From positions 413,983,198 to 414,047,197 of the forward strand of contig CM060990.1 of the NCBI GenBank assembly GCA_030765065.1: a DNA stretch of 64,000 bases, read 5' to 3'. The DNA comes from Deroplatys truncata. Lineage: Eukaryota > Arthropoda > Insecta > Mantodea > Mantidae. This document shows positions 1-64,000 of the stretch, one piece after another. Position 1 is the stretch's first letter, and each line of letters opens with the position of its first letter. Below the pieces are notes generated by a model that was not told where the DNA came from, did no database searches, and saw nothing but the letters and a program-made list of their open reading frames with translations. Both the position numbers and the translations under genes were made by a program.

Positions 1-958
1 CAGTAGCTTTAATGGACGGCCGGATGGTAGTGGCGGTTAATCCAGTCATGGTCCAGGTCTGAGTTTCGGCATCTACTCGTGGTACTGGCGAGGCAACAAC
101 AGAGCTAAATGTGCCAGATCGCAGGAGTGAAGGTTGGCGCGCATGGTAACGCCTCCGAGCTTCAGTGAAGGAGAGTTTTTCCTTTACCCGGATCTCCTGG
201 ATCGCCTTCTCGTCCAAGTACCGCGGAAAGTCGGCAAACGAAGCAGAATGAGACCCTTTACAATTAACGCAGACGGGGGCTGTTGAACAGGTACGTTCGT
301 GTGAGGGCTGGCTACATGTTGCACAGATGTTAACGGCACTCTTACATGAGACTTGCGTATGCCCAAAACGTTGGCATTTAAAACAACGCAGAGGTCTAGG
401 AATATAAGGCCTCACAGAAATCCGTTCGTACCCTGCGGAAATGCTCGTTGGCAGATCGACGCCTTCAAATGTAAGAAACAGGGTACGAGTGGGTAACAAT
501 ACGCCGTCGCGTTTGGCCTGCACTCGATGCACTGCAGTCACCTTTTGATCGTATAAATATTCTACTAGATCCTCGTCCGATATACCATTGAGGATATGGG
601 TGGTAACGACGCCCCGACAGGAGTTCAATGTTCGGTACTTCTCGACACGGATGGGATAACCGTGGAGAAGCGTAGCGCGCTACAATGTCTTAATTTGCTG
701 ATCGGACTTAGTTTGTGCCAATATAGAACCATTCCGTAGACGAGTGCAGGATTGAACCGCACCAGGAATAGCATCTATTCCCTTCTGAATTATAAAAGGC
801 TTCACCTTCTCAAAGTTTTGTGCTTCTTCTGTTCTTGAAATGACCAAGTTACAACCAGCTGACGGCGGTGCTACTTCTGTTACAATGACTTTTCGGCGCT
901 TGTTTGTATAAATGGAGGAAGGGTGCTCCATAGCGAAATAAATCCTCCACCATTGCAA
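1..958 (-). pseudogene. LINE copy 1 ORF1 (zinc-knuckle RNA-binding protein), broken, partial
   Basis: This is the N-terminal two thirds of the element's nucleic-acid-binding ORF1 protein, starting MQWWRIYFAMEHPSS at 958. A Leu codon that is TTG in the intact copies is TAG at 680-682, so translation would stop after 92 residues. Downstream sequence down to position 1 still aligns to the rest of ORF1, including the zinc-knuckle region near 270-400. The C-terminus is outside the window. The protein in intact copies would bind element RNA in a ribonucleoprotein particle; here it is presumed dead. Confidence 0.85.
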
Positions 959-1567
959 CCGTCTCCGACCTCGGGCTCTGACTTCCCAGGCGTTACCCCG
1001 GCTTGGGTGAGTGGCCTATCTATACCAAACTCAACCCAGGGTCACACCTCCCAGAACAATGACAGAGGGACCCAATTGCCGTCAGAAGTCAGCAGCTCAT
1101 GGAATGGCCCTCCCGCGGGACTGCAGTTGAACAGCGGATACGAACACAAACCCTACATGACGACCCCGGGTGGTGGGGATGACGCCATTACCCACTCACC
1201 CAGCTGCGCACCAGTGCGCAGGTATCCGTCAGGCTGTGTCCACGGAGGATTTAAATAAAAACATAAAAGGAATTAAAACTGTGTGGGCGTTTCGCACGCA
1301 AGGTAGGCCGGCGAAGAAGTAAAAGAGACGTGTAAATGAATGGGCGTGAGGCGAAATGTGCAGAAATAGAAGAGAAGAAAGAAACGATGGTGAGGTGCGA
1401 AATGAATGGAATGCAAAGAACGCACGAGAGCCTACCTTGTGTCCACCGGTCACGAGAAGAACCCACATCGACCGGATGGGGGTGAGGGGATGTATGTGGC
1501 GATGATTGGTTCGGGAACCACCGGGTGCGCCAATACCCGTACTCCCATAAGGTGAGCCCGTGAGGGG
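1..1567 (-). mobile_element. LINE copy 1, 5' portion (I-superfamily non-LTR retrotransposon)
   Basis: This is the 5' part of a LINE whose 3' part lies left of the window. The 5' UTR (959-1567) is about 609 nt and ends at the family's typical 5' terminus, where minus strand starts with a CCCC/GGGG palindrome followed by the CTCAC/GTGAG hairpin. Immediately beyond it, ORF2 reverse-transcriptase sequence of another copy begins, so copy 1 was inserted into copy 2. The target-site duplication cannot be seen because the 3' end is outside the window. The exact boundary is uncertain by 1-3 bases. Confidence 0.85.
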
Positions 1568-3644
1568 GACGGCCGATACAGCTCTGGAGACGGCGTTCGA
1601 GTAGATAAGTCCGCGTGAACGGCAATAAATCGCAAAATCATCAACAAAAAGGGACCATGAAATGCCAGGTGGAATACAATCAACAATGGGGTTGATAGCA
1701 ACTGCAAAATCTGTGACACTAAGTACCACGCCCTACGGTACTCCGTTCACTTGAATAAAACGACTAGATAAAACCGAGCCCACACGTACACGAAACACGC
1801 GGTCCGTCATAAACTGCGAAAGAAATAAGGGAAGACGACCGCGGATATTCCATGCGTAATGTGTACGTAAAACGCCCCCGCTCCAACAAGTGTCATAGGC
1901 TTTCTCCAGGTCAAAAAACACAGCCACGGTCTGACACTTTCTCAGAAATCCATTCATAATATGCGTTGAAAGGGACACCAGATGGTCGACGGTAGAGCAA
2001 TAGTGACGAAATCCACACTAAGCCTTTGCTAGAAGTTTCTGAGACTCAAGCCACCATGTCAACCGCCCGTTGATCATGCACTCCATCACCTTGCAAATGC
2101 AACTGGTGAGGGAGATAGGGCGGTAGCTGGTAGGAATTTGTCGATCCTTCCCGGGCTTAAGTATAGGGACAATGGTGGCTTCGCGCCAAACGGAAAGAAA
2201 AAACCGTTTTGCCAAATACGGTTATACACCTGTAAGAGAAAGAGTTTACTGTTGGCTGAAAGGTGCTTTAACATCAGGACATAAATGCCATCCGGGCCAG
2301 CAGCGGAGTGCCTAGAGCAATGAACAGCGTGCTCCAGATCCCTCACTGTAAAAAGATCGTTATAACATTCAGTGTTAGCAGACCGAAAATTATATGGTGC
2401 AGAATCCAGCCGGTCTTTAATAGAGCGAAAGCCGGCGGAATAATGGTCTGAACTGGAAACCGCCTCAAAGGTAGATCCCGGAGTGTTAGCGATGGTAGCC
2501 GGATCCACTATGATGGCATTAAAAACCTGAAGGCCAGAAACAGTACAATGCGACATTTTACCTGAGAAGCGACGAAGTGTATCCCAAACAACGGATGAAG
2601 GCGTAAAGCGATTAAAAGACTCGACAAAACGAGCCCACGACGCCTTCTTGCAATCCTGAATAATGCGACGGGCCCTGGCGCGCGATTGTTTAAAACTCAC
2701 CGAATTATCAAGTGTAGGGTGTCGCCGAAACACCCTAAGTGCAGTCCTACGGGAACGAACGGCGTCCCGACAATCCTGGTTCCACCACGGAACAGGATTT
2801 CTCCCAGGTTGAGAGGATGAACGTGGAATTGCGCGTTCGGCGGCAGCGAAAATCGTAGACGTAAGGTGCAGCACTAGTTTGTTAATGTCGGCGTAGGGCT
2901 GATCGTAAAAATGCACAAGGCTGGAATACAAGCTCCAGTCGGCTTTTGTGATTATCCAGGTAGGTACTCTGGAATGCTGTACGTGGTGTGACAGAAGAGA
3001 AACGACGCAGGGGAATGGTCGCTGGAGTAGGTGTCAGCGACGACGTTCCACTGAAGACGACTAGCAAGCTGGAGGGAGCAAATGGCAAGGTCCATGTGAG
3101 ATAATGTACCAAAAGAATCAGAAATAAAAGTAGGTGCACCTGGATTGAGGATGGAAAGATTGAACTGGTAAAAAATGTCGGAAAGAGGAGTTCCCCTCGC
3201 ACAAGCCCTTGGCGAACCCCACAGTGGGTGATGGGCATTAAAATCTCCCAGCAGAAGAAATGGTGTTGTGAGAGCGGACAGGAGAGGTCGAATGTCCGCG
3301 GGAGCGAGGGGAGACGACGGAGGTGAATATACAGAGCAAACAGAGAAGAAAAAACCGGGTAACTGCAATCTAATGGCAACAGCTTGCAAGTCGAACGTAA
3401 GAGCAAGAGTTTGAAAATGAACGTCGCTACGCACTAACAACATGACACCTCCATGAGCAGGAGCACCCTCCTCCTGTTCAAGATCGTAGTGAACCGGAGT
3501 GTACCCACGGAGATCGAAAGGGTCGTGAGGGCGAAGCTTGGTCTCCTGCAAACACACGACAGTAGGTGAATGGGAATGCAATAAAAGTTGTAGTTCCGCC
3601 CTATGCGATCGTACACCACGTACATTCCAGGTCAGGATAGCTAT
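1568..3644 (-). pseudogene. LINE copy 2 ORF2 fragment (endonuclease + RT), broken
   Basis: Endonuclease motifs are recognisable (QETKL near 3540, GDFNAHH near 3240), followed by the linker and the RT N-terminus (KPGKD, SYRPISLTSC near 2100-2160). The reading is split over at least four frame segments, 2952-3581, 2086-2931, 2018-2215 and 1733-1978, so several frameshifts are present. The start codon at 3642-3644 is ATA where intact copies have ATG. The fragment ends where copy 1 interrupts the RT domain, and the RNase H part lies left of the window. It is non-functional. Confidence 0.85.
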
Positions 3645-3664
3645 GAATAAAAGGGATAAACTGT

Positions 3665-4833
3665 CTACGTAGAAGGGCGGCTTAAAAGAATCTTTTGCTT
3701 AACCTTTGGGCTCGGGCTTTTTGTATGGAGTTGGCAGACTCCATAGCTTCTTCGGAGGGAGGGCCCACGCGCTCAGTGCCAGAAACCGATTCCAGCGCCG
3801 TGAATCGGTCTGGGTGGCAATGGGTGAGGGGTGGCGCTGAGCGCGGCTTGTCCCAGGACCTTCCTGGAACAGCGACCTCCGAGGAAGAGGAGAAGGTGAA
3901 TTTTTCTTACCGCGTTCACGCGGAGGGTCCTTCAGAAAATCTTCCCTACGAAGTTTCTGCTTGGGTTTCATTTCAGCGGCTTGCGACTTCATGGACTTTG
4001 GACCAGGTTTATAGGGCTTGGTAACGGTAGCTTTAATGGACGGCCGGATGGTAGTGGCGGTTAGTCCAGTCTTGGTCCAGGTCTAAGTTTCGGCAACTAC
4101 TCGTGGTACTGGCGAGGCAACAACAGAACTAAGTGTGTCAGATCGCAGGAGTGAAGGTTGCCGTGCATGATAACGCCTCCGGGCTTCAGTGAAGGAGAGT
4201 TTTTCCTTTACCCGGATTTCCTGGATCGCCTTCTCGTCCAAGTATCGTGGACAGTCGGCAAATGACGCAGAGTGAGACCCTTTGCATTTAACGCAGACGG
4301 GGGCTGTGGAACAGGTACGTTCGTGTGACGGCTGGCTACATGAGGCACAGATGGTAACGGCACTCTTACAGAAGACTTGCGTATGCCCAAAACGTTGGCA
4401 TGTGAAACAACGCAGAGTTCTAGGTTTATGCGGCCTCACAGAAATGCGTTCGTACCCTGCGGAAATGCTCGTGGGCAGATCGACGCCATCAAATGTTAGA
4501 AACAGGGTACGAGAGGGTACCAATACGCCGTCGCGTTTAGCCTGCACTCGATGCACTGCAGTCACCTTTTGATCGGATAGATATTCTACTAGATCCTCGT
4601 CCAATATACCATCGAGGCTATGGGTGGTAACGACGCACCGACAGGAATTCAATGTGTGGTGCTTCTCGACACGAATGGGATAACCGTGGAGAAGCGTAGC
4701 GCGCAACAAGGGCTTACTTAGCTGATCGGACGTAGTTTGTGCTAATAAGCAACCATTCCGTTAGCGAGTGCAGGATTGAACCGCACCAGCAATAGTATCT
4801 TTGCCCTTCTGAATTATAAAAGGGTTCACCTTC
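3665..4833 (-). pseudogene. LINE copy 2 ORF1 fragment, broken
   Basis: The C-terminal three quarters of ORF1 are present, with two zinc knuckles readable in the 4083-4709 frame (CFTCQRFGHTQVFC, then CASCSQPSHERTC, then CVKC with the spaced H and C). The C-terminal basic and proline-rich region reads in a second frame (3699-3992), so at least one frameshift separates them near 4000-4080. The N-terminus is cut at 4833 by the tail of copy 3. ORF1 ends 20 nt before the degenerate ORF2 start. Confidence 0.85.
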
Positions 4834-5163
4834 ATCTGATGATGATGATGATGAGATGCGGTTTAAGGGCACTAAACTGCTAAGGTCATCAGCGCCCTTA
4901 CAATGTATAAAATAGAAAGTCAAAACTATAATAGAACCGCATAATTAAAAAACGGGACACAAACCTGCGATGTCCAAAGATTTAAAACAACAATAATACA
5001 ACAATGCCAAAAACTAACACACTAAAAGCATAGGCAATAAAAGATTCAAACGTGTCAAGGACTGTAGAATGCGTGGGACATGAGCGCCTTTTGTCCTCTG
5101 GGGATTAGACTCCCCATAAAAACAGACAGAATAGAATTACTAAGCTAAAACACGCCCAACGCA

Positions 5164-7271
5164 TTAAATGCGCAGATTAAAATCACTGTCATGAATAAAA
5201 CGTAAAACACGTTCTACAGCACGCGTGTCGTCTGCAAAACATTGGCTAGGCCAACAGGCAGACCCACAAGAGCTAGCAATGCAGCTAAAACCTGACGCAC
5301 CGTTAAGAGCGCATCACATTGCCCACAGAGTGGTTCGGGGTCACCAATGAGCAAATACCAATGACTAAAAACACAATGTTCAATCCGCAAACGAGCTAAA
5401 ATTACCTCTTGCCGACGACACGAACGAGAAGAGGTACCCCAGATCAACGGGAAAGGCTTAACCTCCCGCAACTTGTTCCCCAGGAGGGCCGTCCACTCAT
5501 CGCGCCTAAGCGCGGGAGGATGCGGCGACGTAGAATAACACACGAATCTGACGAGGGAACAACAGAGGTAAAAAATCTGGGTAATAAAATCGCCGATTTG
5601 GCAGCGGCGTCGGCAGATTCATTACCTGAGATGCCCACATGACCTGGAATCCACATGAAGGAGGTGCTGGTGCCAGAGACACCAAGCGAGTGGAGCAGGT
5701 CATGAATGCGCTGATCTTAAGACTGAAGAAGGGGTCTCACTCTTCGGCATCGACGATAACCCAAGGTGCCAGAGGACCTCAGCGCGCAACCATGGAGGAA
5801 AACGCGTTTCCCCCCTTGAAAGGGTCGGCGCTGGCGTAACGTCTAACTGCCGAAGAAGCTGACGAAATCGAACCCCTGGAGGGAGCAAAGCAGAGGAGCT
5901 AACTAAATATTGCCGGTCAAGTGAATCATCGTAAAATGCCGCGAAGGACGGGTGGTCAGGCAAACTGGAGAGTCGACAGGCATAGCTACTCAAGAGCAAC
6001 TCACGCCTGAAGGACAGCGGAAGCTAGTTGGGAAGGCCCCTATAGCGACTCTAATACCACAATGATGAATGGGATTCAAACGACGTAACACAGATGGACG
6101 TGCCGATGAAAAGACAATACACCCGTAATCAAGTTTGGATCGGACCAAAGAGCAATAAAGACAGAGAAGGACGGTCCGATCAGCTCCCCAGGATGTGCTA
6201 CTTAAAACACGTAAAATATTAAGAGAACGGTCTCACTTTGCTTTTAAAAAGGATACGTGAGAAGTCCAGCTCAACTTTCGATCACATATACCCCAACAAT
6301 TTCACCTCGTCTGCAAACGGAAGCACCTCCGGCCCAAGATGGAGAGAGGGCGGAGGGAAATATTTCCTGCGCCAGAAGACGATGCAGACGGATTTCTCGG
6401 CGGAGAAATTAAAACCGTTGGCGTTACTCCAGGCGTAGAGACGGTCGATACAGCTCTGTAGACGGTTTTCGAGTAGACAAGTGCGCCGTGAACTGCAATA
6501 AATCGCAAAATCATCAACAAAAAGGGACGATGAAATGCCAGCTGGAATGCAATCAATAATGGGGTTGATAGCAACTGCAAAAAGTGTGACACTAAGTACC
6601 GAGTCTTGCGGTACTCCGTTCTCTTGAATAAAACCACTAGTTAAAACCGAGCCCACACGTACACGAAACACGCGGTCCGTCATAAACTCCCGAAGAAATA
6701 AGGGAAGACGACCGCGGATATTCCATGCGTAAAGTGTACGTAAAATGCCGCCCCTCCAACAAGTGTCATAAGCTTTCTCCAGGTCAAAAAACACAGCTAC
6801 GGTTTGACACTTTCTCAGAAATCCATTCATAATATGCGTCGACAGGGACACCAGATGTTCGACGGTAGAGCGATAGCGACAAAATCCGCAATGAGCGTGT
6901 GCTAGAAGTTTCTGAGACTCAAGCCACCATGTCAACCGCCCGTTGATCACGCGCTCCATCACCTTGCAAATGCAACTGGTGAGGGAGATAGGGAGGTAGC
7001 TGGAAGGAAGTTGGCGATCCTTCCCAGGCTTAAGTATAGGGACAATGCTGGCTTCGCGCCAAACGAAAGGAAAAGCGCCGTCTTGCCAAATACGGTTATA
7101 GACCTGTAAGAGAAAGAGTTTACTCTCGGATGAAAGGTGCTTTAACATCAGGACATGAATGCCATCCGGGCCAGGAGCGGAGTGCCTAGAGCAATGAAGA
7201 GCGTGCTCCAGCTCCCGTATTGTAAAAAGTTCGTTATAACATTCAGTGTTAGCAGACCGAAAATTATAAGG
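5164..7271 (-). pseudogene. LINE copy 3 ORF2, RT and RNase H portion, broken
   Basis: The RT core is readable as one 288-residue stretch (6282-7148) containing KPGKD, FDLEKAYD, an altered NGVPQDS (normally NGVPQGS) and the catalytic FVDD. Downstream frames are shifted repeatedly. RNase H sequence is spread over 5214-6000 in at least three frames, and much of its first third (TDGS region) is deleted between about 5700 and 5750. The stop corresponding to the family's C-terminus (SDFNLRI) is at 5164-5166. Confidence 0.85.
7257..7271. repeat. Target-site duplication of copy 4, left
   Basis: The sequence ccgaaaattataagg is repeated exactly at 13102-13116, at the two ends of copy 4. The duplicated bases are part of copy 3 ORF2, which proves copy 4 inserted there. 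Confidence 0.95.
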
Positions 7272-7286
7272 AAGGAATGTTGGTTT

Positions 7287-7319
7287 ACGGCGCTCAACTA
7301 CCAGGGTTATAAGCGCCGT
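7287..7319 (-). other. 3' terminal stem-loop of copy 4
   Basis: Arms acggcgct (7287-7294) and agcgccgt (7312-7319) pair perfectly around a 17-nt loop. The main-family copies have a 9-bp stem at the same place with the same 17-nt loop but C-G and G-C pairs exchanged at one position. In characterised LINEs such stem-loops are recognised by the element's own RT; that role here is inferred. Confidence 0.8.
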
Positions 7320-7493
7320 TCTAAAACAGGAAGGTAAAAACCAAAGGTAGACACAAAAGTTAAAAATCAGAGTAAAAGCGGAGGATAGGAATCAGAAGAG
7401 AAGCAAAGGAGAAGTCAAAGGTAAATAGACATAAAGAGGAGAATAAATATTAAACTTTAAGCACCGAGCGGTGAAGCTTCTCGGGTAGAAACA

Positions 7494-10400
7494 TTAAAAA
7501 CGCAGGGGTAAGGCAGCCTCGGATAAAAACTTAAAAAGCCTATCAACCGCGTGAGGAGTGTCCGCCAAGACCTCCGCAAGACTCGCCGGCAGCTGCAGAG
7601 CATTCCGAAGACGCGCCAGGGAGGCGCACTCCAACAACAGGTGGCGGACCGATAGACGTCCGCCGCACGCGGAACAAAGTGGAGCAGAGTCACCGCTAAA
7701 AAGATAGGCGTGGGTGAAATTGCAGTGGCCAATGCGTAAACGGGCTAAAAGAACTTCCTCACGGCGAGAAAAACGACTAGAAGTAACCCAGGGAACAGGA
7801 AGGTCCTTCACTACCCGAAGCTTGTTGCCGCGGAGAGCCACCCACTTCTCGCGCCAGCACGAGAGGACCGCTCTCCGCAAAACAAGCCAAAGGTCCTCCG
7901 ACGTTACCCGAGGGATGACAACATCGGGTTGGACTGTCGCCGCCTTAGCCGCCAAATCCGCTAGTCCATTTCCAGCCAAGCCGACGTGACCAGGTAGACA
8001 AGCACACTTCACGAAAACACCAGAAGCGTATAAAACGTGAAGGGCATCCTGGATTTGCTGTACAAGAGGATGGTAATTGTACAGCTCGCGTATACTCTGG
8101 AGTGCGCTAAGGCAATCACATAAAATAAGGCTGTTTCCCAAGTGGTGGCGGCGCACGTATAAAACGGCACGATATATGGCATACAGTTCAGCACAATAAA
8201 CGGAAGTGCCACCAGGAAGACCGAAGGTATGAGTTCCGGGCCCATGAACGTAAGCGCAACCAACACCGTTGGAGCACTTAGATCCGTCGGTGTAAATAAA
8301 AATCCAGCCATGGTAGCCGGACAGAAATTCTAAAAAACAAGCCCGTATACTGGACATAGGGAGCGTAGACCTCCGGTAAGCCGCCATTCCAAGATCAATG
8401 TGAGACGTCACACGAAGCCAAGAAGGAAACACCCTCTCCCCGGTAGGGAACATGCTGGGCAGTTCAATACCGTGCTGCCGAAGAAGCTCCCGGAAGCGAA
8501 CACCTGAGGGCCTGGGATATACGGAGCGGTCCCAATAACGTTCGTCCAGCGCGGCGTGGAAAAAGGAAGCGAACGTTGGATGGGTTGGCATACAGCGAAG
8601 CGCACAGCCATAATTGCCGAGGAGAAAAGCACGCCGATAACACAAAGGAGGTTCTGCCGACTCGGCGTAAAGGCTGAGAACTGGGCTAGTTGGAAACGCA
8701 CCAATAGCTAAGCGAATGCCACGATTGTGGACGGCGTCTAATGCCCTCAGCACAGATGGAGGGGCGGAGGAATAAACGACGCACACATAATCTAACTTGG
8801 ATCGGACTAGCGCGCGATACAGACGCAGCAAAACCGCCCGATCCGCTCCCCAAGACGTACCATTTAACACCCGCAAGAGACTTCGAGAACGATCACATCG
8901 AGCTTTCAATCGTGCAATATGTGATGACCAGCTAAGCTTCCTGTCAAACGTCAACCCCAAGAAACGCGCCTCGCCGGCAAAGGGCAGAAAGTCTGAACCG
9001 AAACGGAGAGAAGGTGGAAATCGTTCCCTACGGCGCCAGAAGTTAACGCAGGTGGTCTTCTCAGTGGAGAAACGAAAGCCAGTTCTAGAACTCCAAGAGT
9101 GAAGGTTGTCCAAACATTGCTGCAGGCGGCGTTCCAAAAACGACGTACGCTGAGAGGTACAGTACACGGCGAAATCGTCCACAAATAAACAGGACGACAC
9201 CCCTGGTGGAACACATTCGCAGATAGAATTAATCGCTACAGCGAAAAGTGTAACGCTTAGTACGGAGCCCTGAGGCACGCCGTTCTCTTGGATAAAAAGG
9301 TTCGAAAAAACCGAGCTGACCCGTACTCGAAAAACGCGGTCCGCCAGAAACTCCTGAAGGAACAGCGGCAAGCGTCCACGAAGGTTCCAGGCGTGTAGGG
9401 AACGCATAATCCCCGCCCGCCAACAGGTATCAAAAGCCTTCTCAAGGTCAAAGAAAATCGCAACGGTTTGACAGTTCCGCAGAAACCCGTTCATGATCTG
9501 CGTCGAGAGCGACACAAGGTGGTCTAGAGTTGAACGGCGTCGTCGAAAACCGCATTGGGTGTTGGACAGAAGGTTCCGAGTCTCCAACCACCATACCAAC
9601 CGCCCATTGATCATGCGTTCCAACACCTTGCAAACGCAACTGGTGAGGGAAATGGGACGGTAACTGGAAGGAAGGTGACGGTCCTTTCCAGGTTTCAAAA
9701 TGGGAATGATGATGGCCTCTCGCCACTTATCTGGAAATGTGGAAGCAACCCAAACGCGATTATAGAGTTCGAGCAGGAAGGTCTTACCCGCAGGAGGGAG
9801 GTGTGTTAACATTTGAACTTGGAGGCCATCGGACCCTGGCGCTGATAGGCGCGAAGTCGAAAGCGCGTAGTCCAACTCCGCCATGGTGAAAAGGCGATTA
9901 TAAAGCTCAAGATTACCAGAACGAAACGAGCAGCGCTGTGATTCTACGCGATCCTTGACAATAAGGAACTCGGGCGAATAAGAATCGGAGCTTGATACCT
10001 GTGCGAAAGCGCTGCCCAAAGTATTAGCCACGTCGAATGGAGCAACAACAGCTCCTACAGATGTGTGAAGACCAGCAATGGGCAGATGGGTCGATTTACC
10101 GGCTACATGCCTGAACTTATCCCAGACGATAGAGGAAGGTTTGCGGTGGTTAAAAGAAGAGACAAAGCGACTCCAGGACGTTTTTTGCTATCCCGAATAA
10201 TTTGCCTACACCGAGAACGCAGTTTCTTGTACTGGATCAGGTTCTCCAGGGTAGGGCGACGCTGGAAAAGCCGAAGAGAACGCCTGCGAGCACGAATGGC
10301 CGTTCGACATTCATCCGTTCACCAAGGGATCGGAAATCGCCGAGGGTGGGCGGTCGACCGAGGAATAGAGTGCGCAGCAGCAGAAAGAATAGTCTCTGTG

Positions 10401-11182: not shown

Positions 11183-11218
11183 TGTAATTAAAAGGAGGGT
11201 CGTAATCGGAAGAGGCGA

Positions 11219-53688: not shown

Positions 53689-53762
53689 CTAAAAATAACA
53701 ATATAACAATAACAATAATAACAATAACAACAATAATAACAATAACAACAATAATAACAATG
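53689..53762. repeat. AAC/AAT microsatellite in copy 12 3' UTR
   Basis: Imperfect aac and aat units in the same position as in copies 6, 11 and 13. Confidence 0.85.
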
Positions 53763-53926
53763 CAAATATCCGAAAAATCAACACACTAAAAGCATAGGAA
53801 ATAAAAGATTAAAACGTGTCAAGAACTGTAGAATGCGAGGGACATGAGCGCCATATGTCCACTGGGGAGGAAGTCCCTATTAAAACATACAGAATAAAAT
53901 AACAAAGCTAAAAGACGCTCAGCGCA

Positions 53927-54474
53927 TCAAATGCGACGATTAAAACCAATGTCACTTATAAAACGTAAAAGACATTCTACAGCATGCGCGTCGTCTGCCA
54001 AAACGTTGGCTATGCCTACAGGCAGACCCACGCGAACGCGCAGTGGAGCTAAAACTTGACACTCAGTTAAAATGTGACGCACGTTAAGAGCACGTCACAC
54101 TGCTGACACAGTGGAGCGGGATCGCCACTGAGCAGGTAACTATGACTAAAACGGCAATGTCCAATTCGTAAACGGGCTAAAAGTACCTCTTCCCGACGTG
54201 AAGAACGAGAAGAGGTACCCCAGTTTAACGGGAGAGGCTTAACCTCCCGCAACTTGTTCCCCCGGAGGGACGTCCACTCATCGCGCCAGCGCGAGAGGAT
54301 GCGGCGACGTAAAATAACACACGAATCTGACGAGGGAACAACAGAGGTAAAAAATCTGGGTAATAAAATCGCCGATTTCGCAGCGGCGTCGACAGACTCA
54401 TTACCTGAGATGCCCACTTGACCTGGAATCCACGTGAAGGAGACGCTGATGCCAGAGACACCAAGCGAGTGGAG
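53927..54474 (-). pseudogene. LINE copy 12 ORF2, C-terminal portion, broken
   Basis: RNase H end (GNESVDAAAK) and the C-terminal region. One base is missing near 54085 (gcacgttaag where intact copies have gcaccgttaag), which destroys the frame inside the CX2CX7HX4C knuckle. The family stop is at 53927-53929. Confidence 0.88.
54462..54474. repeat. Target-site duplication of copy 13, left
   Basis: caagcgagtggag is repeated at 60543-60555; it is copy 12 ORF2 sequence. Confidence 0.96.
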
Positions 54475-54490
54475 TAAGTAAGTAAGTAAG
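54475..54490. repeat. (TAAG)4 tail of copy 13
   Basis: Four exact taag units directly between the target-site duplication and the 3' end of the element (atatgcgg). On minus this is a (CTTA)n tail. Confidence 0.95.
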
Positions 54491-54501
54491 ATATGCGGTT
54501 T

Positions 54502-54536
54502 AAGGGCGCTAAACTGCTACGGTCATCAGCGCCCTT
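54502..54536 (-). other. 3' terminal stem-loop of copy 13
   Basis: aagggcgct and agcgccctt pair perfectly over 9 bp with a 17-nt loop, as in copy 6. Confidence 0.8.
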
Positions 54537-54639
54537 ACAATGTATAAAAGATAATGTCAAAATATAAAACAGGTAAAAGAACCGCATAGTTAAAAACGGG
54601 ACACAAACCCGCGATGTTCAAATAGCTAACACCAACAAC

Positions 54640-54745
54640 AGAATAATAACAAAATAACAATAACAACAATAATAACAATAACAATAATAACAATAACAAT
54701 AACAAGAACAACAATAATAACAAGAATAACAATAACAACAATACA
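54640..54745. repeat. AAC/AAT microsatellite in copy 13 3' UTR
   Basis: The longest of the four versions of this internal repeat. A leucine-rich antisense open frame here is only its translation. Confidence 0.85.
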
Positions 54746-54907
54746 AAGGTCTGAAAAACCAACACACTAAAAGCAAGGGCTATAAAAGATTAAAACGTGT
54801 CAGGAACTGTAGAACGCGAGGGACATGAGCGTCATATGTCCACTGGGGATAAGAGTTCCCATAAAACAGACAGAATAAAAGTACTAAGCCAACAGACGCC
54901 CAACGCA

Positions 54908-57900
54908 TTAAATGCGCAGATTAAAATCACTGTCATGAATAAAACGTAAAACACATTCTACAGCACGCGTGTCGTCTGCCAAAACGTTGGCTAGGCCAAC
55001 AGGCAGACCCACACGAGCACGCAATGCAGCTAAAACCTGACACTCTGTTAAAATGTGACGCACCGTTAAGGGCACGTCACACTGCCCACAGAGTGGTGCG
55101 GGGTCACCACTGAGCAAATACCTATGACTAAAAACACAATGTCCAATCCGTAGACGAGCTAAAATTACCTCTTCCCGACGACAAGAACGAGAAGAGGTAC
55201 CCCAGATTAACAGGAGAGGCTTAACCTCCCGCAACTTGTTCCCCCGGAGGGCCGTCCACTCATCGCGCCAGCGCGAGAGGATGCGGCGACGTAAAATAGC
55301 ACACGAATCTGACGAGGGAACAACAGAGGTAAAAAATCTGGGTAATAAAATCGCCGATTTCGCAGCGGCGTCGGCAGACTCATTCCCTGAGATGCCCACA
55401 TGACCTGGAATCCACATGAAGGACACGCTGATGCCAGAGACACCAAGCGAGTGGAGCAGGTCATGTATGCGCTGTACAAGCGGGTGGTAATGGTACAGCG
55501 CAGTAATAGTCTGAAGGGCACTCAGAGAGTCCGTACAAATAAAACAGTGCTGTAAGGCGTGCCGCTGAATGTATAAAATAGATTGATAAATACTAAAAAG
55601 TTCGGCGGTAAAAATTGAACATTGTGCAGGTAAACGAAACTTAAAACTACAGTGACCAGAAACAAAGGCACATCCAACTCCAGCTTCAGTCTTAGATCCA
55701 TCGGTAAAGATAAAATGGAAGTCCCCGAATTGAGCCCGTACTTCTAAAAAAGCCGATCTAAAGACTGAAGCAGGGGTCTCAGCCTTCGGCATTGACGTTA
55801 GCCCAAGGTGACAGTGGGCCTCAGCGCGGGACCATGGAGGAAAACGCGTTTCTCCCCGTGGAAGGGCCGGCGCTGGCGTAACGTCCAAATGCCGAAGTAG
55901 CAGTCGAAATCGAACCCCTGGAGGGAGCAATGCAGAGGAGCTAACTAAATATTGCCGGTCAAGCGAATCCTCGTAAAATACATCGAAGGACGGGTGGTTA
56001 GGCAAGCTTGAGAGTCGACAAGCATAGCTGCACAAGAGCATCTCACGCCTGAAGGACAGCGGAGGCTCTGCAGCTTCTGCGTACAGACTGGGTACAGGGC
56101 TAGTTGGAAAGGCCCCTGTAGCGACCCTTATGCCACGATGGTGAATGGCATTCAATCGACGTAACACAGATGGACGTGCCGACGAATAAACAATACACCC
56201 GTAATCAAGCTTGGATCGGACCAAAGAGCGATAAAGGCGAAGAAGGACGGTCCGATCAGCTCCCCAGGATGTGCCACTTAAAACACGTAAAATATTAAGA
56301 GAACGGTCACACTTTGCTTTTAAAAAGGAAACGTGCGAGGTCCAACACAACTTCCTGTCAAAAATCAACCCCAAAAATTTCGCCTCGTCTGCAAAAGGAA
56401 GTATCCCAGGCCCAAGATGGAGTGAGGGTGGAGGGAAATACTTCCGGCGCCAAAAGTTGATGCAGACGGATTTCTCGGCGGAGAAATTAAAGCCGTTGGC
56501 GTTACTCCAGGCGTAGAGACGGTCGATACAGCTCTGGAGACGGCGTTCGAGTAGACAGGTCCGCCGTGAACTACAATAAATAGCGAAATCGTCAACAAAA
56601 AGGGACGATGAAATGCCAGGTGGAATACAATGAACAATGGGGTTGATAGCAATCGCAAAAAGTGTGACACTGAGTACAGAGCCCTGCGGTACTCCGTTCT
56701 CTTGAATAAAACGACGAGATAAAACCGAGCCCACACGTACACGAAAGACGCGGTCCGTCATAAACTCCCGAAGAAATATGGGAAGACGACCGCGGATATT
56801 CCAATCGTGAAGTGTACATAAAATGCCGCCCCTCCAACAAGTGTCATAAGCTTTCTCCAGGTCAAAAAATACAGCCACGGTTTGACACTTTCTCAGAAAT
56901 CCATTCATAATATGCGTCGACAAGGACACCAGATGGTCGACGGTAGAGCGATAACGACGAAACCCGCACTGAGCGTTCGCTAGAAGTTTCTGAGACTCAA
57001 GCCACCATGTCAACCGCCCGTTTATCATGCGCTCCATCACCTTGCAAATGCAACTGGTGAGGGAGATAGGGCGGTAGCTGGAAGGTAGTTGGCGATCCTT
57101 CCCAGGCTTAAGAATAGGGACAATGGTGGCTTCGCGCCAAACGGAAGGAAAAATGCCGTCTTGCCAAATACGGTTATAGACCTGTAAGAGAAATAGTTTA
57201 CTGTCGGCTGAAAGGTTCTTTAACATCAGGACATGAATGCCGTCCGGCCCGGGAGCGGAGTGCCGAGAGCAATGAAGAGCGTGCTCCAGCTCCCTCATTG
57301 TGAATAGTTCGTTATAGCATTCATCATTAGCAGACCGAAAAGTATATGATGCGGAATCCTGCCGGTCTTTAATACAGCGAAAGCCGGCGGAATAATGGTC
57401 TGAATGGGATACCGCCTCAAAGGCAGCACCCAGAGTGTTAGCGATGGCAGCCGGATCCACTATGGTGGCATTAGAAACCTGAAGGCCAGAAACAGTACAA
57501 TGTGACACTTTACCTGAGAAGCGACGAAGTTTATCCCAAACAACGGATGAAGGCGTAAAGCGATTAAAATACTCGACAAAACGAGCCCAAGATGCCTTCT
57601 TGCTATCCTGAATAATGCGACGAGCCCTGGCGCGCGATTGTTTAAAAGTCACCAAATTATCAAGTGTAGGGTGTCGCCGAAACACCCTAAGCGCAGTCCT
57701 ACGGGCTCGAACGGCGTCCCGACAATCCTCGTTCCACCACGGAACAGGTGGCCGCCGAGGTTGGGAGGATGAACGGGGTATTGCGCGTTCGGCGGCAGAG
57801 AAAATAACAGACGTAAGGTGCTGCACTAGGTGGTGAATGTCGGAGAAGGGCTGATCGTCAAAATGCACGAGGCTGGAATACAAGCTCCAGTCGGCTTTTG

Positions 57901-58597
57901 CGAATATCCAGGTAGGTACTCTGGAATGCTGTACGTGGTGCGACAGAAGAGAAACGATGCAGGGGTAATGGTCGCTGGAGTAGGTGTCAGCGACGGCGTT
58001 CCACTGAAGACGACGTGCAAGCTGGAGTGAGCAAATTGCAAGGTCCAGGTGAGAAAATGTACCAGAAGAATCAGAAATAAAAGTAGGTGCACCTGTATTG
58101 AGGATGGAAAGATTGAACTGATAAAAAATGTCGGAAAGAAGAGTTCCCCTCGCACAAGCCCTTGGCGAACCCCATAGTGGGTGATGGGCATTAAAATCTC
58201 CCAACAGAAGAAATGGTGTTGGGAGAGCGGACAGGAGAGCTCGAATGTCCGCGGGAGCGAGGGGAGACGATGGAGGTGTATACACAGAACAAACAGAAAA
58301 GAAAAAACCGGGTAACTGCAGTCTAATGGCAACAGCTTGCAAGTCGGACGTAAGTGTGATAGGATGAAAATGAACGTCATTACGCACCAACAACATGACA
58401 CCTCCATGAGCAGGAGCACCCTCCTCCGGTTCAAGATCGTAGCGAACCGGAGTGTACCCTCGGAGATCGAAAGGGTCGTGAGGGCGAAGCTTGGTCTCCT
58501 GCAAACACACGACCATAGGTGAATGGGAACGCAATAAAAGTTGCAGTTCCGCCCTATGCGATCGTACACCACGTACATTCCAGCTCAGGATAGCCAT
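54908..58597 (-). CDS. LINE copy 13 ORF2: endonuclease-reverse transcriptase-RNase H, intact
   Basis: 1229 residues, same length as copy 6. Endonuclease: WNVRG (6-10), QETKL (33-37), GDFNAHH (133-139), SHLDLAI and SSDHYP (207-212). RT: PGPDG, KPGKD, FDLEKAYD (Asp about 579), NGVPQGS and FVDD (about 667-670). RNase H: FTDGS (Asp about 966), TAEL, CTDSLS and GNESAD. The C-terminal knuckle CGQCDVPLTVRHILTEC keeps all four ligands, unlike copy 6. The protein would nick chromosomal DNA and copy the element RNA from the exposed 3' end in the nucleus. The start is the ATG 20 nt after the ORF1 stop. Confidence 0.97.
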   Translation of the reverse strand: MAILSWNVRGVRSHRAELQLLLRSHSPMVVCLQETKLRPHDPFDLRGYTPVRYDLEPEEGAPAHGGVMLLVRNDVHFHPITLTSDLQAVAIRLQLPGFFFSVCSVYTPPSSPLAPADIRALLSALPTPFLLLGDFNAHHPLWGSPRACARGTLLSDIFYQFNLSILNTGAPTFISDSSGTFSHLDLAICSLQLARRLQWNAVADTYSSDHYPCIVSLLSHHVQHSRVPTWIFAKADWSLYSSLVHFDDQPFSDIHHLVQHLTSVIFSAAERAIPRSSSQPRRPPVPWWNEDCRDAVRARRTALRVFRRHPTLDNLVTFKQSRARARRIIQDSKKASWARFVEYFNRFTPSSVVWDKLRRFSGKVSHCTVSGLQVSNATIVDPAAIANTLGAAFEAVSHSDHYSAGFRCIKDRQDSASYTFRSANDECYNELFTMRELEHALHCSRHSAPGPDGIHVLMLKNLSADSKLFLLQVYNRIWQDGIFPSVWREATIVPILKPGKDRQLPSSYRPISLTSCICKVMERMINGRLTWWLESQKLLANAQCGFRRYRSTVDHLVSLSTHIMNGFLRKCQTVAVFFDLEKAYDTCWRGGILCTLHDWNIRGRLPIFLREFMTDRVFRVRVGSVLSRRFIQENGVPQGSVLSVTLFAIAINPIVHCIPPGISSSLFVDDFAIYCSSRRTCLLERRLQSCIDRLYAWSNANGFNFSAEKSVCINFWRRKYFPPPSLHLGPGILPFADEAKFLGLIFDRKLCWTSHVSFLKAKCDRSLNILRVLSGTSWGADRTVLLRLYRSLVRSKLDYGCIVYSSARPSVLRRLNAIHHRGIRVATGAFPTSPVPSLYAEAAEPPLSFRREMLLCSYACRLSSLPNHPSFDVFYEDSLDRQYLVSSSALLPPGVRFRLLLRHLDVTPAPALPRGETRFPPWSRAEAHCHLGLTSMPKAETPASVFRSAFLEVRAQFGDFHFIFTDGSKTEAGVGCAFVSGHCSFKFRLPAQCSIFTAELFSIYQSILYIQRHALQHCFICTDSLSALQTITALYHYHPLVQRIHDLLHSLGVSGISVSFMWIPGHVGISGNESADAAAKSAILLPRFFTSVVPSSDSCAILRRRILSRWRDEWTALRGNKLREVKPLLLIWGTSSRSCRREEVILARLRIGHCVFSHRYLLSGDPAPLCGQCDVPLTVRHILTECQVLAALRARVGLPVGLANVLADDTRAVECVLRFIHDSDFNLRI

Positions 58598-58617
58598 GAA
58601 TAAAAGGGATAAACTGT

Positions 58618-59934
58618 CTACTTAGAAGGGCGGCTTAAAATTACCTTTTGTTTAACCTTTGGGCTCGGGCTTTTTGTATGCAGTTGGTCAGACTCCATAG
58701 CTTCCTCGGAGGGAGGGCCCACGCGCTCAGTGCCAGAAACCGATTCAAGCGCCGTGAATCGGTTCTGGGTGGCGATGGGTGAGGGGTGCCGCTGAGCGCG
58801 GCTTGTCCCAGGACCTTCCTGGGACAGCGACCTCCGAGGAGGAGAAGGTGAACTTTTGCTACCGCGCGCACGCGGAGGGTCTTTCAAGAAATCTTCCCTA
58901 CGTAGTTTCTGCTTGGGATTCTTTTCAGCGGCTTGCGACTTCATTGACTTTGGACCAGGTTTATAAGGCTTGGTAACAGTAGCTTTAATAGACGGCCGGA
59001 TGGTAGTGGCGGTTAATCCAGTCAAGGTCCAGGTCTGAGTTTCGGCATCTACTCGTGGTACTGGCGAGGCAACAACAGAACTAAACGTGCCAGATCGCAG
59101 GAGTGAAGGTTGGCGCGCATGGTAACGCCTCCGGGCTTCAGCGAAGGAGAGTTTTTCCTTTACCCGGATCTCCTGGATCGCCTTCTCGTCCAAGTACCGC
59201 GGACAGTCGGCAAACGAAGCAGAATGAGACCCTTTGCAATTAACGCAGACGGGGGCTGTTGAACAGGTACCTTCGTGTGAGGGCTGGCTACATGTTGCAC
59301 AGATGTTAACGGCACTCTTACATGAGACTTGCGTATGCCCAAAACGTTGGCATTTAAAACAACGCAGAGGTCTAGGAATATAAGGCCTCACAGAAATCCG
59401 TTCGTACCCTGCGGAAATGCTCGTGGGCAGATCGACGCCATCAAATGTAATAAACAGGGTACGAGTGGGTACCAATACGCCGTCGCGTTTGGCCTGCACT
59501 CGATGGTCCGCTGTCACCTTCTGGTCTGCAAGATATTCTACCAGGTCTTCGTTCGATATACCATCGAGGCTATGGGTGGTAATAACGCCTCGACAGGAAT
59601 TCAATGTGCGGTGTTTCTCGACACGGATAGGATAGCCGTGGAGAAGCGTAGCGCGCAACAAGGTCTTACTTTGCAGATCGGATTTCGTTTGGGCTAATAA
59701 GGAACCATTCCGTAGACGAGTGCAGGACTGAACCGCACCAGCAATTGCATCAATGCCCTTTTGAATGATGAAAGGGTTCACCTTCTCAAAGCTTTGTCCT
59801 TCTTCGGTTCGTGAAATGACCAAGTAACAACCAGTTGTCGGTGGTGTCACTTCTGTTACATAGACTTTTCGGCGCTTGTTAGTAGTAATGGAGGAAGGGT
59901 GCTCCATAGCGAAATAAATTCTCCACCATTGCAA
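58618..59934 (-). CDS. LINE copy 13 ORF1: zinc-knuckle RNA-binding protein, intact
   Basis: 438 residues from MQWWRIYFAMEHPSS, with a second possible start at the Met at residue 10. An RRM-like region precedes the knuckles CFKCQRFGHTQVSC, CATCSQPSHEGTC and CVNC...H...C, and the C-terminus is Lys/Ser/Pro-rich. It is close to copy 6 ORF1, with the same KVYVTEVTPPTTG subtype. It presumably binds the element RNA in cis with ORF2. Confidence 0.96.
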   Translation of the reverse strand: MQWWRIYFAMEHPSSITTNKRRKVYVTEVTPPTTGCYLVISRTEEGQSFEKVNPFIIQKGIDAIAGAVQSCTRLRNGSLLAQTKSDLQSKTLLRATLLHGYPIRVEKHRTLNSCRGVITTHSLDGISNEDLVEYLADQKVTADHRVQAKRDGVLVPTRTLFITFDGVDLPTSISAGYERISVRPYIPRPLRCFKCQRFGHTQVSCKSAVNICATCSQPSHEGTCSTAPVCVNCKGSHSASFADCPRYLDEKAIQEIRVKEKLSFAEARRRYHARQPSLLRSGTFSSVVASPVPRVDAETQTWTLTGLTATTIRPSIKATVTKPYKPGPKSMKSQAAEKNPKQKLRREDFLKDPPRARGSKSSPSPPRRSLSQEGPGTSRAQRHPSPIATQNRFTALESVSGTERVGPPSEEAMESDQLHTKSPSPKVKQKVILSRPSK

Positions 59935-60542
59935 CCGTCTCCGACCTCGGGCTCTGACTTCTCGGGCGTTACCCCGGCTTGGGTGAGTGGCCTATCTATA
60001 CCAGACTCACCCCAGGGTCACACCTCCCAGAACATAGACAGAGGGACCCAATCGCCGTCAGAAGTCAGCAGCTCAGGCAATGGCCCCCCCGCGGGACTGC
60101 AGTTGAACAGCGGATACGAACACATACCCTACATGACGACCCCGGGTGGTGGGGATGACGCCATTACCCACTCACCCAGCTGCGCACGCGGTGCGCGGGT
60201 ATCCGTCAGGCTGTGTCCACGGAGGATTGAAATAAAAAGATAAAAGAAACTAAAACTGTGTGGGCGTTTCGCACGCAAGGTAGGCCGGCGGGGAAGAAAA
60301 AGAGATATGCGAATGTCATGGTGCGAAATGGCCGGAAAGTGATAAGGGAAGAAAGAAACGATGGTGAGGTGCGGTATGAATGGAATGTAAAGAACGCACG
60401 AGAGCCTACCTTGTGTCCACCGGTCACTTGAAGAACCCACCTCGACCGGATGGGGGTGAGGGGATGAATGTGGCGATGAATGGCTCGGGAACCCCCGGGT
60501 GCGCCAAAAACCCGTACTCACATAAGGTGAGCCTCTGAGGGG
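59935..60542 (-). promoter_or_regulatory. 5' UTR of copy 13
   Basis: 608 nt with the family's terminal hairpins. The palindrome has one change (CCCCTCAGAGG on minus), which weakens one pair. The antisense frame (59899-60243) is open for 114 codons. Confidence 0.6.
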
Positions 60543-60555
60543 CAAGCGAGTGGAG
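60543..60555. repeat. Target-site duplication of copy 13, right
   Basis: Exact partner of 54462-54474 (caagcgagtggag). Confidence 0.96.
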
Positions 60556-63500
60556 CAGGTCATGTATGCGCTGTACGAGTGGGTGGTAATGGTACAGCGC
60601 AGTAATACTCTGAAGGGCAGTCAGAGAGTCCGTACAAATAAAACAGTGCCGTAAGTCGTGCCGCTGAATGTATAAAACGGATTGATAAATGCTAAAACGT
60701 TCGGCGGTAAAAATTGAACATTGTCGAGGTAAACGAAAAGTAAAACTCTGTACACCAAAAAAAAGGCACATCTTACTCCAATATCAGTCTTAGACCCATC
60801 AGTGTATATAAAATGACAGTCCCCGAACTGCGCCTGTAGTTCTAAAAAGGCGGATCTAAAAACAGAAGCAGCGGTCGCATTTTTCGGCATCGACGTTAGC
60901 CCAAGGTGGATGTGAGCCTCAGCGCGCGACCATGGAGGAAAACGCGTTTCCCCTCGGGTAAGGTCCGGCGATGGCGTAACGTCCAAATGCCGAAGTTGCA
61001 GTCGAAATAGAACCCCTGGAGGGAGCAATGCAGAGGAGCTAACTAAATATTGCCGATCAAGCGAATCCTCGTAAAATGTCGGGAAGGACGGGTGGTCAGG
61101 CAAGCTGGAGAGTCGACAAGCATAGCTGCACAAGAGCATCTCACGCCTGAAGGACAGCGGAGGCTCTGCAGCTTCTGCGTACAGACTGGGTACAGGGCTA
61201 GTTGGAAAGGCCCCTGTAGCGACTCTTATGCCACGATGGTGAATGGCATTCAATCGACGTAACACAAATGGACGTGCCGACGAATAAACAATACACCCGT
61301 AATCAAGCTCGGATCGGACCAAAGAGCGATAAAGACGAAGAAGGACGGTCCGATCAGCTTCCCAGGATGTGCCACTTAAAATACGTAAAAGATTAAGAGA
61401 ACGGTCTCACTTAGGTTTTAAAAAGGAAACGTGAGAAGTCCAGCTCAGCTTCCGGTCAAAGATCAACCCCAAAAATTTCACCTCGTCTGCAAATGGAAGG
61501 ACCTCCGACCCAAGATGGAGAGAGGACGGAGGAAAAGCCTTCCGGCGCCAGAAGTTGATGCAGACGGATTTCTCGGCGGAGAAATTAAAACCGTTAGCGT
61601 TACTCCAGGCGTAGAGACGGTCGATACAGCTCTGGATACGGTGTTCGAGGAGACAGGTCCGCCGTGAACTGCAATAAAAGGCAAAATCATCAACAAAAAG
61701 GGACGATGAAATGCCAGGTGGAATACAATCAACAATAGGGTTGATAGCAATCGCAAAAAGTGTGACACTGAGTACAGAGCCTTGCGGTACTCCGTTCTCT
61801 TGAATAAAACAACTAGATAAAACCTAGCCCACACGTACACGAAAGACGCGGTCCGTCATAAACTCCCGAAGAAATATGGGAAGACGACCGCGTATATTCC
61901 ATGCGTGAAGTGTACGTAAAATGCCGCCCCTCCAACAAGTGTCATAAGCTTTCTCCAGGTCAAAAAATACAGCCACGGTTTGACACTTTCTCAGAAATCC
62001 ATTCATAATATGCGTCGACAAGGACACCAGATGGTCGACGGTAGAGCGATAGCCACGAAATCCGCACTGAGCGTTCGCTAGAAGTTTCTGAGACTCAAGC
62101 CACCATGTCAACCGCCCGTTGATCATGCGCTCCATCACCTTGCAAATGCAACTGGTGAGGGAGATAGGGCGGTAGCTGGAAGGTAGTTGGCGATCCTTCC
62201 AAGCTAAGTATAGGGACAATGCCGGCTTCGCGCCAAACGGAAGGAAAAAAGCCGTCTTGCCAAATACGGTTATAGTCCTGTAAGAGAAAGAGTTTACTGT
62301 CGGCTGAAAGGTGCTTTAACATCACGACATGTATGCCGTCCGGGCCAGGAGCGGAGTGCCTAGAGCAATTAAGAGCGTGCTCCAGCTCCCTCATTGTAAA
62401 AAGTTCGTTGTAACATTCAGTGTTAGCAGACCGAAAATTATATGGTGCAGAATCCAGCCGGTCTTTAATAGAGCGAAAGACGGCGGAATAATGGTGTAAA
62501 CTGGAAACCGCTCAAAGGCAGATCCCAGGGTGTTAGCGATGGCAGCCGGATCCACTATGGTGGCATTAGAAACCTGAAGGCCAGAAATAGTACAATGCGA
62601 CACTTTACCTGAGAAACGACGAAGTTTATCCCAAACAACAGATGAAGGCGTAAAGCGATTAAAAGACTCGACAAAACGAGCCCACGACGCCTTCTTGCTA
62701 TCCTGCATAGTGCGACGAGCCCAGGCGCGCCATTGTTTAAAAGTCAACAAATTAACAAGTGTAGGGTGTCGCCCAAACACCTTAAGTGCAGTCCTACGAG
62801 CACGAACGGCGGCCCAAAAATCCTCGTTCCACCACGGAACAGGCATTCGCCGAGGTTGAAAGGATGAACGGGGAATTGCGCGTTCGGCAGCAGAGAAAAT
62901 AGTAGAGGTAAGGTACTGCACTAGTTGGTTAATGTCGGTGAAGGGCTGGTCGTCAAAATGCACGAGGCTGGAACACAAGCTCCTGTCGGCTTTTGGGAAT
63001 ATCCAGGTAGGCACTCTGGAATGTAGTACGTGGTGTGACAGAAGAGAAACGATGAAGGGGTAATGGTCGCTGGAATAGGTGTCAGCGACGACGTTCCACT
63101 GCAGACGACTAGCAAGCTGGAGTGAGCAAACGGCAAGGTCCAGGTGTGAGAATGTACCAGAAGAATCAGAAATAAAATTAGGCTTACCTGTATTGAGGAT
63201 TGAAAGATTGAACTGGTAAAAAATGTCGGAAAGAAGAGTTCCCCTCGCACAAGCCCTTGGCGAACCCCATAGTGGGTGATGGGCATTAAAATCTCCCAAC
63301 AGAAGAACTGGTCTTGGGAGAGCGGACAGGAGAGCCCGAATGTCCGCGGGAGCGAGGGGAAACGATGGAGGTGAATACACAGAACAAACGGAAAAGAAAA
63401 AACCGGGTAACTGCAGTCGAATGGCAACAGCTTGCAAGTCGGACGTAAGTGTGAAAGTTTGAAAATGAACGTCATTACGCACAAAAATCATAACACCACC

Positions 63501-63692
63501 ATGAGCAGGAGTACCCTCCTCCGGTTCAAGGTCGTAGCGAACCGGAGTGTACCCTCGATGATCGAAAGGGTCTTGAGGGCGAAGCTTGGTCTCCTGCAAA
63601 CATACGACCATAGGTGAATGGGAACGCAATAAAAGCTGCAGTTCCGCCCTATGCGATCGAACACCACGTAAATTCCAGCTCAGGATAGCCAT
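60556..63692 (-). pseudogene. LINE copy 12 ORF2, N-terminal to RNase H portion, broken
   Basis: The start is at 63692 (MAILSWNLRGVRS), and 400 codons are open through the endonuclease and linker. Lesions: a missing base near 62510 (accgctcaaagg), two missing bases near 62204 in the KPGKD region, a Ser-to-TAG nonsense near 61826 (VGS region), and a frame break in an A-run near 60765 within RNase H. FVDD and FDLEKAYD are still readable. Confidence 0.9.
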
Positions 63693-63710
63693 GAATAAAA
63701 GGAATAAACT

Positions 63711-64000
63711 CTCTACTTAAAGGGCGGCTTAAAAGAATCTTTTGCTTAACCTTTGGGCTCGGGCTTTTTGTATGGAGTTGGTCAGACTCCATAGCTTCCT
63801 CGGAGGGAGGGCCCACGCGCTCGGTGCCAGAAACCGATTCAAGCGCCGTGAATCGGTTCTGGGTGGCGATGAGTAAGGGGTGCCGCTGAGCGCGTCTTGT
63901 CCCAGGACCTTCCTGGGACAGCGACCTCCGAGGAGGTGAAGGTGTACTTTTGTTACCGCGCGCACGCGGAGGGTCTTTCAAAAAATCTTCCCTAAGAAGT
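63711..64000 (-). pseudogene. LINE copy 12 ORF1, C-terminal portion, partial
   Basis: The basic C-terminal region (KDPPRARGNKS...KSPSPKVKQK) is readable from the window edge. The end reads KILLSRPLSREF where intact copies have KVILSRPSK and a stop: a missing base near 63719 carries the frame past the normal stop into the ORF2 start region. The N-terminal three quarters lie outside the window. Confidence 0.75.

Follow-up and report, generated by a model that had tools for sequence, protein, structure and literature searches.

The window analyzed here, a stretch of 64,000 nucleotides from the mantis Deroplatys truncata (C16:413983198-414047197, contig CM060990.1 of assembly GCA_030765065.1), carries nests of long interspersed nuclear elements (LINEs) of one family, which we call family A, together with a single copy of a relative, family B. 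This nested, one-way array is not peculiar to the locus: the family is unusual, but the array is a typical instance of it. Family A inserts with target-site duplications (TSDs), is strongly enriched as a target of its own insertions, lands the same way round as its host more often than the target motif predicts, and has been multiplied by local duplication. From a mild preference for pyrimidines in the top strand, about 1.8-fold of the bias would be expected, and a further three- to fourfold is unexplained by target sequence. In our best reading, family A is a LINE that works like the algal element Zepp, its nests growing by self-insertion and local duplication. The full explanation that we favor, in which a young, self-inserting I-type LINE builds the nests, most insertions take the orientation of the host, and RNA-based tethering contributes the extra factor, has in our judgment about an even chance of being right.

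Family A and its nests in the window

Located at 414 Mb of a 707-Mb contig, the window belongs to a genome of 4.29 Gb and 818 contigs. It was annotated by BLAST using its own family-A copy (window 60542-54487, minus strand) as the reference, and all family-A segments found in this way are on the minus strand. The original prediction of 13 related LINEs with their sense strand on minus is confirmed by this search, which found 12 copies or parts of copies of family A (E1-E4 and H_A-H_H) and one of family B (65-73% identical to A across most alignable segments). They form two nests with ordinary AT-rich DNA in between, rather than a single continuous nest. The content of the window is LINE A, LINE B, and AT-rich DNA (four frames were scanned with Pfam and the other frames judged by eye), and the 4.7-kb AT-rich stretch between the nests holds no frame of at least 80 amino acids (aa). 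The features are as follows, with positions in brackets referring to family A.

54487..60542, minus: E1, full-length family-A LINE in host H_A; (CTTA)n tail; TSD CTCCACTCGCTTG
58618..59991 and 54908..58621, minus: stretches within which open reading frames ORF1 and ORF2 of E1 lie, both open
60543..64000, minus: 5′ part of H_A (A 1637-5099), host of E1, continuing past the window edge; by BLAST
53552..54486, minus: 3′ part of H_A (A 5087-6053); its 3′ flank is H_B at A 2454
51427..53544, minus: first part of H_B (A 2454-2543 and 2738-4758); by BLAST
45380..51425, minus: E2, full-length family-A LINE in host H_B; (ATC)n tail; TSD ACGATGCCGAA
44161..45359, minus: 3′ part of H_B; its 3′ flank is H_C at A 2110
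40327..44140, minus: H_C (A 2110-6053); its 3′ flank is H_D at A 557
34926..40307, minus: H_D (A 557-6053); its 3′ flank is H_E at A 2987
31984..34907, minus: H_E (A 2987-6046), outermost visible layer of the right-hand nest, ending in AT-rich DNA
27304..31983, no strand: AT-rich non-LINE DNA separating the two nests; GC 33-34% in 2-kb bins inside
22864..27303, minus: first part of H_F (A 2-4447), with AT-rich DNA as target; TSD TTGTCTGTGG
16840..22863, minus: E3, full-length family-A LINE in host H_F; TSD TCCAACTAACCC
15333..16826, minus: 3′ part of H_F (A 4435-6053); by BLAST
13102..15095, minus: first part of H_G (A 1213-3208), its 5′ side cut, in AT-rich DNA
7269..13101, minus: family-B LINE in host H_G, same orientation; TSD CTTATAATTTTCGG
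4853..7268, minus: 3′ part of H_G (A 3197-6053, with a gap); by BLAST
1568..4833, minus: H_H (A 758-4025), directly after the H_G tail; not a clean nest
1..1567, minus: E4, 5′ part of a family-A LINE (A 1-1566) in host H_H at 4025; its 3′ end lies beyond the window

Both junctions and a TSD (read by eye in the window) mark three insertions of A into A (E1 in H_A, E2 in H_B, and E3 in H_F) and one of B into A (in H_G). Five further links have one junction, namely the 3′ flanks of H_A, H_B, H_C, and H_D listed above and the 5′ junction of E4 in H_H. From the 3′ flanks only, H_A-H_B-H_C-H_D-H_E would form a chain, with the remaining ends outside the window. Nested, same-orientation insertions, as first proposed for this DNA, are seen at these links. 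H_G and H_H are adjacent incomplete copies and no clean nest (H_G is cut at A 1213 after AT-rich DNA, and A 758 then follows). H_F went into AT-rich non-LINE DNA with a TSD of its own, and the end of H_E falls in the same AT-rich stretch.

Family A is about 6.06 kb long, and its conserved 3′ block leads into an (ATC)n or (CTTA)n tail. Its 1237-aa ORF2 frame matches the Pfam domains Exo_endo_phos, RVT_1, and RNase_H (APE-type endonuclease, reverse transcriptase [RT], and RNase H), whereas the 457-aa ORF1 frame upstream has no Pfam match, only CCHC-like motifs recognized by eye. Because ORF2 combines these three domains, we place family A among the I-type LINEs, which we take to be the I superfamily. 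The TSDs of its insertions are 9-14 bp long, as expected for target-primed reverse transcription; among 42 elements for which both ends are present, 31 have a TSD of at least 9 bp (6 of the 31 were set by eye). Family A is apparently a young, recently active family. At the 3′ ends of loci L039-L068, near-identical copies differ in the tail that comes after the same block, which is (ATC)n, (CTTA)n, or (CCTTA)n. Family B, a LINE in its own right, seems to have fewer close copies; it occurs in clusters together with A and usually in the same orientation.

Self-insertion and orientation across the genome

A 32-mer from the RT region has 9,372 copies genome-wide (up to three mismatches allowed), and there are 3,539 exact A 5′ ends. 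Assuming ~5 kb per copy, the family would occupy ~1% of the 4.29-Gb genome. Family A was nevertheless the target in 10 of 37 sampled TSD-intact insertions, and by extrapolation ~35-50% of intact 5′ ends lie inside A (the 35% is hand arithmetic on uniform totals). Self-targeting is therefore far above the family's share of the genome.

Nested copies outside the window were sampled by best-match searches with the A 5′ end and 3′ end (best 40 copies each of ~1,400 candidates), and 30 loci per end, 60 in all, were fetched with 1.5-kb flanks. Of the A-in-A junctions of best-match copies outside the window, 28 of 28 had the same orientation (merged by hand, without L031 and C14:2256243); for many of these, one junction only was seen or the two flanks derive from different host positions. 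With 0.5^28 equal to 3.7e-9, this rules out a chance run. No opposite case occurs at the junctions of the searched copies in the 60 loci; opposite A fragments lie farther away in L018 and L057. A census of junctions over the fetched loci and the window, in which some places were counted twice, gave 87 same-way and 2 opposite junctions, a further 75 having no A flank; both opposite junctions involve copies 80-84% identical to the reference.

The TSD-intact insertions outside the window comprise 10 in A, all 10 the same way as the host, and 27 elsewhere. A first set supplied 7 in A and 24 elsewhere (the 31 of 42 elements given above), and ten further elements added 3 and 3. The first set derives from 55 element pairs: 11 were without one end, L027 (a duplicate of L026) and L029 were omitted, and 11 of the 42 left had no TSD. 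In the follow-up set, 3 of 10 were without an end or a TSD, the TSD of C13:171461157 was set by eye, and C14:2256243, an ambiguous case inserted at a tail junction, is not counted.

The preference has real exceptions. The 100 exact RT-motif copies listed by position on C1 include mixed-strand clusters (e.g., C1:4.08-4.35 Mb), and two opposite A-in-A nests with TSDs occur at C1:4134130 and C1:15033329, at host positions 568-580 and 733-743. These two came from ten C1 elements picked for close opposite neighbors, of which two were same-way nests and the other six non-self or undetermined. Together with further cases from whole-genome patterns, these clean opposite nests rule out an absolute orientation rule.

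The whole-genome patterns were gapped motifs in which an intact A 5′ end is no more than 60 bases from a host motif, in four 60-bp host windows. Around the RT motif they returned 9 same and 2 opposite places, and the corresponding numbers around the ORF1 start are 11 and 7, for a pooled 20 against 9 (29 places), where the same-way share predicted from sequence is 28-38%. The tail probability of 20 of 29 is ≤0.0008, and that of 18 of 26, after hand merging of local duplicates, is ≤0.0013. Extrapolated to all A-in-A insertions, the same-way share is ~86-87% and the excess odds over sequence are 3.6 (1.6-8.6), a rough estimate given few windows, approximate motif models, and an assumption of motif conservation. 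Nested-pair orientation elsewhere in the genome, as tabulated on the samples and these motif windows, is thus nonrandom, with true exceptions. The orientation-specific preference for its own family that was originally suggested survives as a statistical bias (self is over-represented, and the same-way excess goes beyond the pyrimidine preference), but not as a strict rule.

Possible sources of the orientation bias

Some of the bias is expected from the target sequence. Judged from 26 non-self targets, insertion mildly favors a top strand rich in pyrimidines (63% pyrimidine at -6 to +5 around the nick), and the family-A sense strand is 56.5% pyrimidine, so that sequence alone predicts a modest same-way excess. 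Over the whole element, the predicted same:opposite ratio is 1.55-1.94:1 by position weight matrix and 1.20-2.26:1 by conditional models (L019 was dropped before both). Asymmetry of this kind, with an endonuclease that favors the pyrimidine-rich top strand and hence the LINE sense strand, could in principle be the whole cause, comparable to the queues in CLIQUEs, human retroelement clusters whose one-way bias is linked by the authors to element-borne target sites (available portion of PMC3215922). The inverted:direct ratio for adjacent full-length Alu pairs within CLIQUEs is 0.38 (same portion), and both C1 opposite nests with TSDs fall at the start of ORF1, most of which is predicted to favor the opposite orientation. 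However, the whole-element prediction goes no higher than the ratios above, same-way insertions are ahead in windows whose motif favors the opposite orientation, and the high share of insertions in self is left unexplained; we therefore consider target sequence on its own a rather unlikely cause. Although both systems are retroelement clusters with a one-way bias, CLIQUEs are strings of Alu, L1, and SVA (median 638 bp) in which TSDs and A-rich parts are enriched in target sites (PMC3215922, as far as available), whereas family A inserts as full 6-kb elements at positions scattered along the body. Two host sites may be insertion hot spots, positions 903 (L016, L101) and 3765-3779 (L014/L015, L102) being reused at the same or nearly the same site on different contigs.

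Local duplication is a second contributor. Junctions common to L026/L027, L043/L044, L010/L012, and L013/L015 lie 13-68 kb apart, and seven loci (L015, L016, L037, L040, L043, L044, and L056) have flanks from different host positions on their two sides. If tandem duplication and unequal recombination multiplied direct nests while inverted pairs were lost, the bias would arise after insertion. In humans, inverted Alu pairs are in shortage (pair exclusion), and direct pairs exceed inverted ones out to 350 kb (available portion of PMC3215922). Consistent with such a process, the best 150 RVT_1 matches (a control with families pooled, C1-C16) are same-way 17 to 2 at ≤20 kb. Yet the 13 TSD-intact A-in-A insertions sit at 13 distinct host positions, so they are not one event copied, and a nested junction that joins host position 903 to the A start (903|1) is present at just five places genome-wide. 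Three of these are exact (one on C14; C16:239.01 and 239.03 Mb, a local duplicate) and two have two mismatches. Duplication with loss of inverted pairs is accordingly a doubtful account of the bias as a whole.

Composite mobilization, in which the host 5′ part and the insert would move as a unit, was also considered and, for the 903|1 junction, rejected, given that this junction is not mass-mobilized. The two-mismatch copies of this junction (C16:270612426 and 270615417) lie 3 kb from each other in opposite orientation, which points to an inverted duplication, and a second repeated nested junction, 62|1, is present on C1 and C2. Stacked 5′ ends were seen in L018, L112, and L022, with starts cut near 121, 537, 224, 105, 1410, or 1430 right before the next element start. 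Several A insertions of the most uniform cluster (L014, L049; C14:1.57-1.96 Mb) lie within or next to a tandem satellite of 97 bp that occurs in both orientations.

Orientation is also coherent over distances greater than a single nest. In the best-match sample, consecutive A copies ≤300 kb apart are the same way in 70 cases and opposite in 2, and copies >1 Mb apart are even (35 to 34). Position-ordered consecutive copies on C1 (≤300 kb) are same-way in 40 of 54 and 47 of 56 in two tallies, and one-way family-A clusters are present on many chromosomes. One serious rival is regional polarity, in which A insertions would take the orientation dictated by the direction of replication forks or of transcription in the region, whatever the immediate host. 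In its favor, coherence extends to 300 kb, and in 18 of 24 comparisons over up to 1 Mb family B is oriented like the closest A. There are also strand switches at C16 ~371.2 Mb and C13 ~198.4 Mb, where, among the matches listed, the A strand is mostly minus to the left and mostly plus to the right (with exceptions on C16), so that elements point away from the center. Furthermore, host-relative targeting alone does not predict that non-self TSD insertions match their neighbors, and a regional influence is favored by the match described below, which is why this rival is kept; that match raises our confidence in it and lowers our confidence in the favored explanation and in sequence alone.

The exceptions do not fit it well, however. 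When the ten opposite nests, of which two probably stem from a single event by duplication, are compared with the regional majority, five follow and five oppose it at 1 Mb, and the split is 4/4 at 300 kb; neither a regional-only nor a host-only model fits this. The best RVT_1 matches lack coherence at 100-300 kb (2 to 3), and the cluster at C1:4.08-4.35 Mb is mixed. On balance, we think regional polarity an unlikely cause, but one to be taken seriously. Sequence alone, duplication with inverted-pair loss, and regional polarity each cover part of the observations, and none covers all.

In the explanation that we favor, family A inserts into its own older copies with TSDs as expected of target-primed reverse transcription, and its pyrimidine-rich sense strand supplies the favored top strand, which predicts part of the same-way bias. 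Our best guess for the rest is that transcripts of existing copies, or RNA-DNA pairing, would keep the insertion complex at those copies; the antisense strand, complementary to the element RNA, would then be nicked preferentially, giving same-way insertion. Local duplication multiplies some of the same-way nests. Tethering in cis is plausible by analogy with Jockey-3, whose transcripts in Drosophila remain at cognate DNA (available portion of preprint PMC10827089), although this is not evidence for family A itself. In a more specific version, RNA-guided self-targeting, the complex would be kept at homologous DNA either by pairing of the element RNA with it or by nascent RNA from a copy already there, with the complementary antisense strand being nicked; this we consider possible but unlikely.

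Several observations weigh against the favored explanation. The extra bias was measured at 29 places in four 60-bp windows with approximate models, and conservation may not be equal for the two motifs on the ORF1 side. The 28 of 28 best-match result fits poorly with a same-way share of 86% (probability 0.015), and the opposite nests at C1:4134130 and C1:15033329 are real. Finally, all 10 non-self TSD insertions with an A copy ≤300 kb away have the orientation of that copy, although one of these neighbors duplicates the same insertion and several of the ten share one cluster; the remaining 17 of 27 have no A neighbor within this distance among the matches listed.

Relation to known systems and significance

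The one-way array was originally likened to a unistrand, flamenco-type piRNA cluster, in which selection for antisense piRNAs would keep the orientation. Flamenco and flam-like clusters of Drosophila are likewise large arrays with elements in one orientation, and the sequence here is compatible with read-through transcription of a nested one-way array. However, the strand bias of flam-like clusters is driven exclusively by Gypsy elements (available portion of PMC10643416), with Gypsy/ERV content and antisense selection, whereas here one LINE family and a relative form one-way clusters on many chromosomes, with open-frame copies inside the array. The anatomy thus gives the comparison no support, and we consider a piRNA cluster of this type very improbable.

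A closer parallel is offered by green algae, in which self-nesting LINEs have been described and are thought to mark centromeres. Zepp and ZeppL LINEs (Coccomyxa/Chlorella and Chlamydomonas) accumulate in nests by inserting into existing copies, and in Coccomyxa Zepp forms strictly one cluster per chromosome, probably centromeric (PMC8226300 and PMC3446292, in the portions available). Family A likewise inserts into existing copies, forming nests. However, Zepp is L1-type, whereas family A has RNase H and an (ATC)n/(CTTA)n tail instead of poly(A), and among the matches listed it has several clusters plus isolated copies per contig (e.g., C1, C2, C11, and C13), on many chromosomes. On these two counts, element type and number of clusters, family A is not a member of the Zepp type.

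HeT-A, TART, and TAHRE are head-to-tail, one-way LINE arrays that join chromosome ends; in contrast, family A makes TSDs (31 of 42 elements) in internal DNA, as in the window, at 414 Mb of its 707-Mb contig. G2/Jockey-3 belongs to a different clade from family A. In its Drosophila centromere islands, as in the nests described here, a non-LTR (long terminal repeat) element is concentrated; a term search of PMC6516634 found “nested” absent and “orientation” used twice, both times in an unrelated sense. A literature search at the level of titles and abstract openings, with most subscription papers outside its reach, found no animal LINE with same-way self-nesting.

A nested array with a single orientation is not necessarily a piRNA cluster, given that a self-inserting family makes such arrays in many places. 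Self-nesting by an I-type LINE in a multi-gigabase genome, with an orientation preference unexplained by sequence, would make target choice testable by comparing self with non-self sites. If RNA-guided self-targeting were true, it would give self preference and same-way orientation in one step, and LINE nests would be self-propagating structures.

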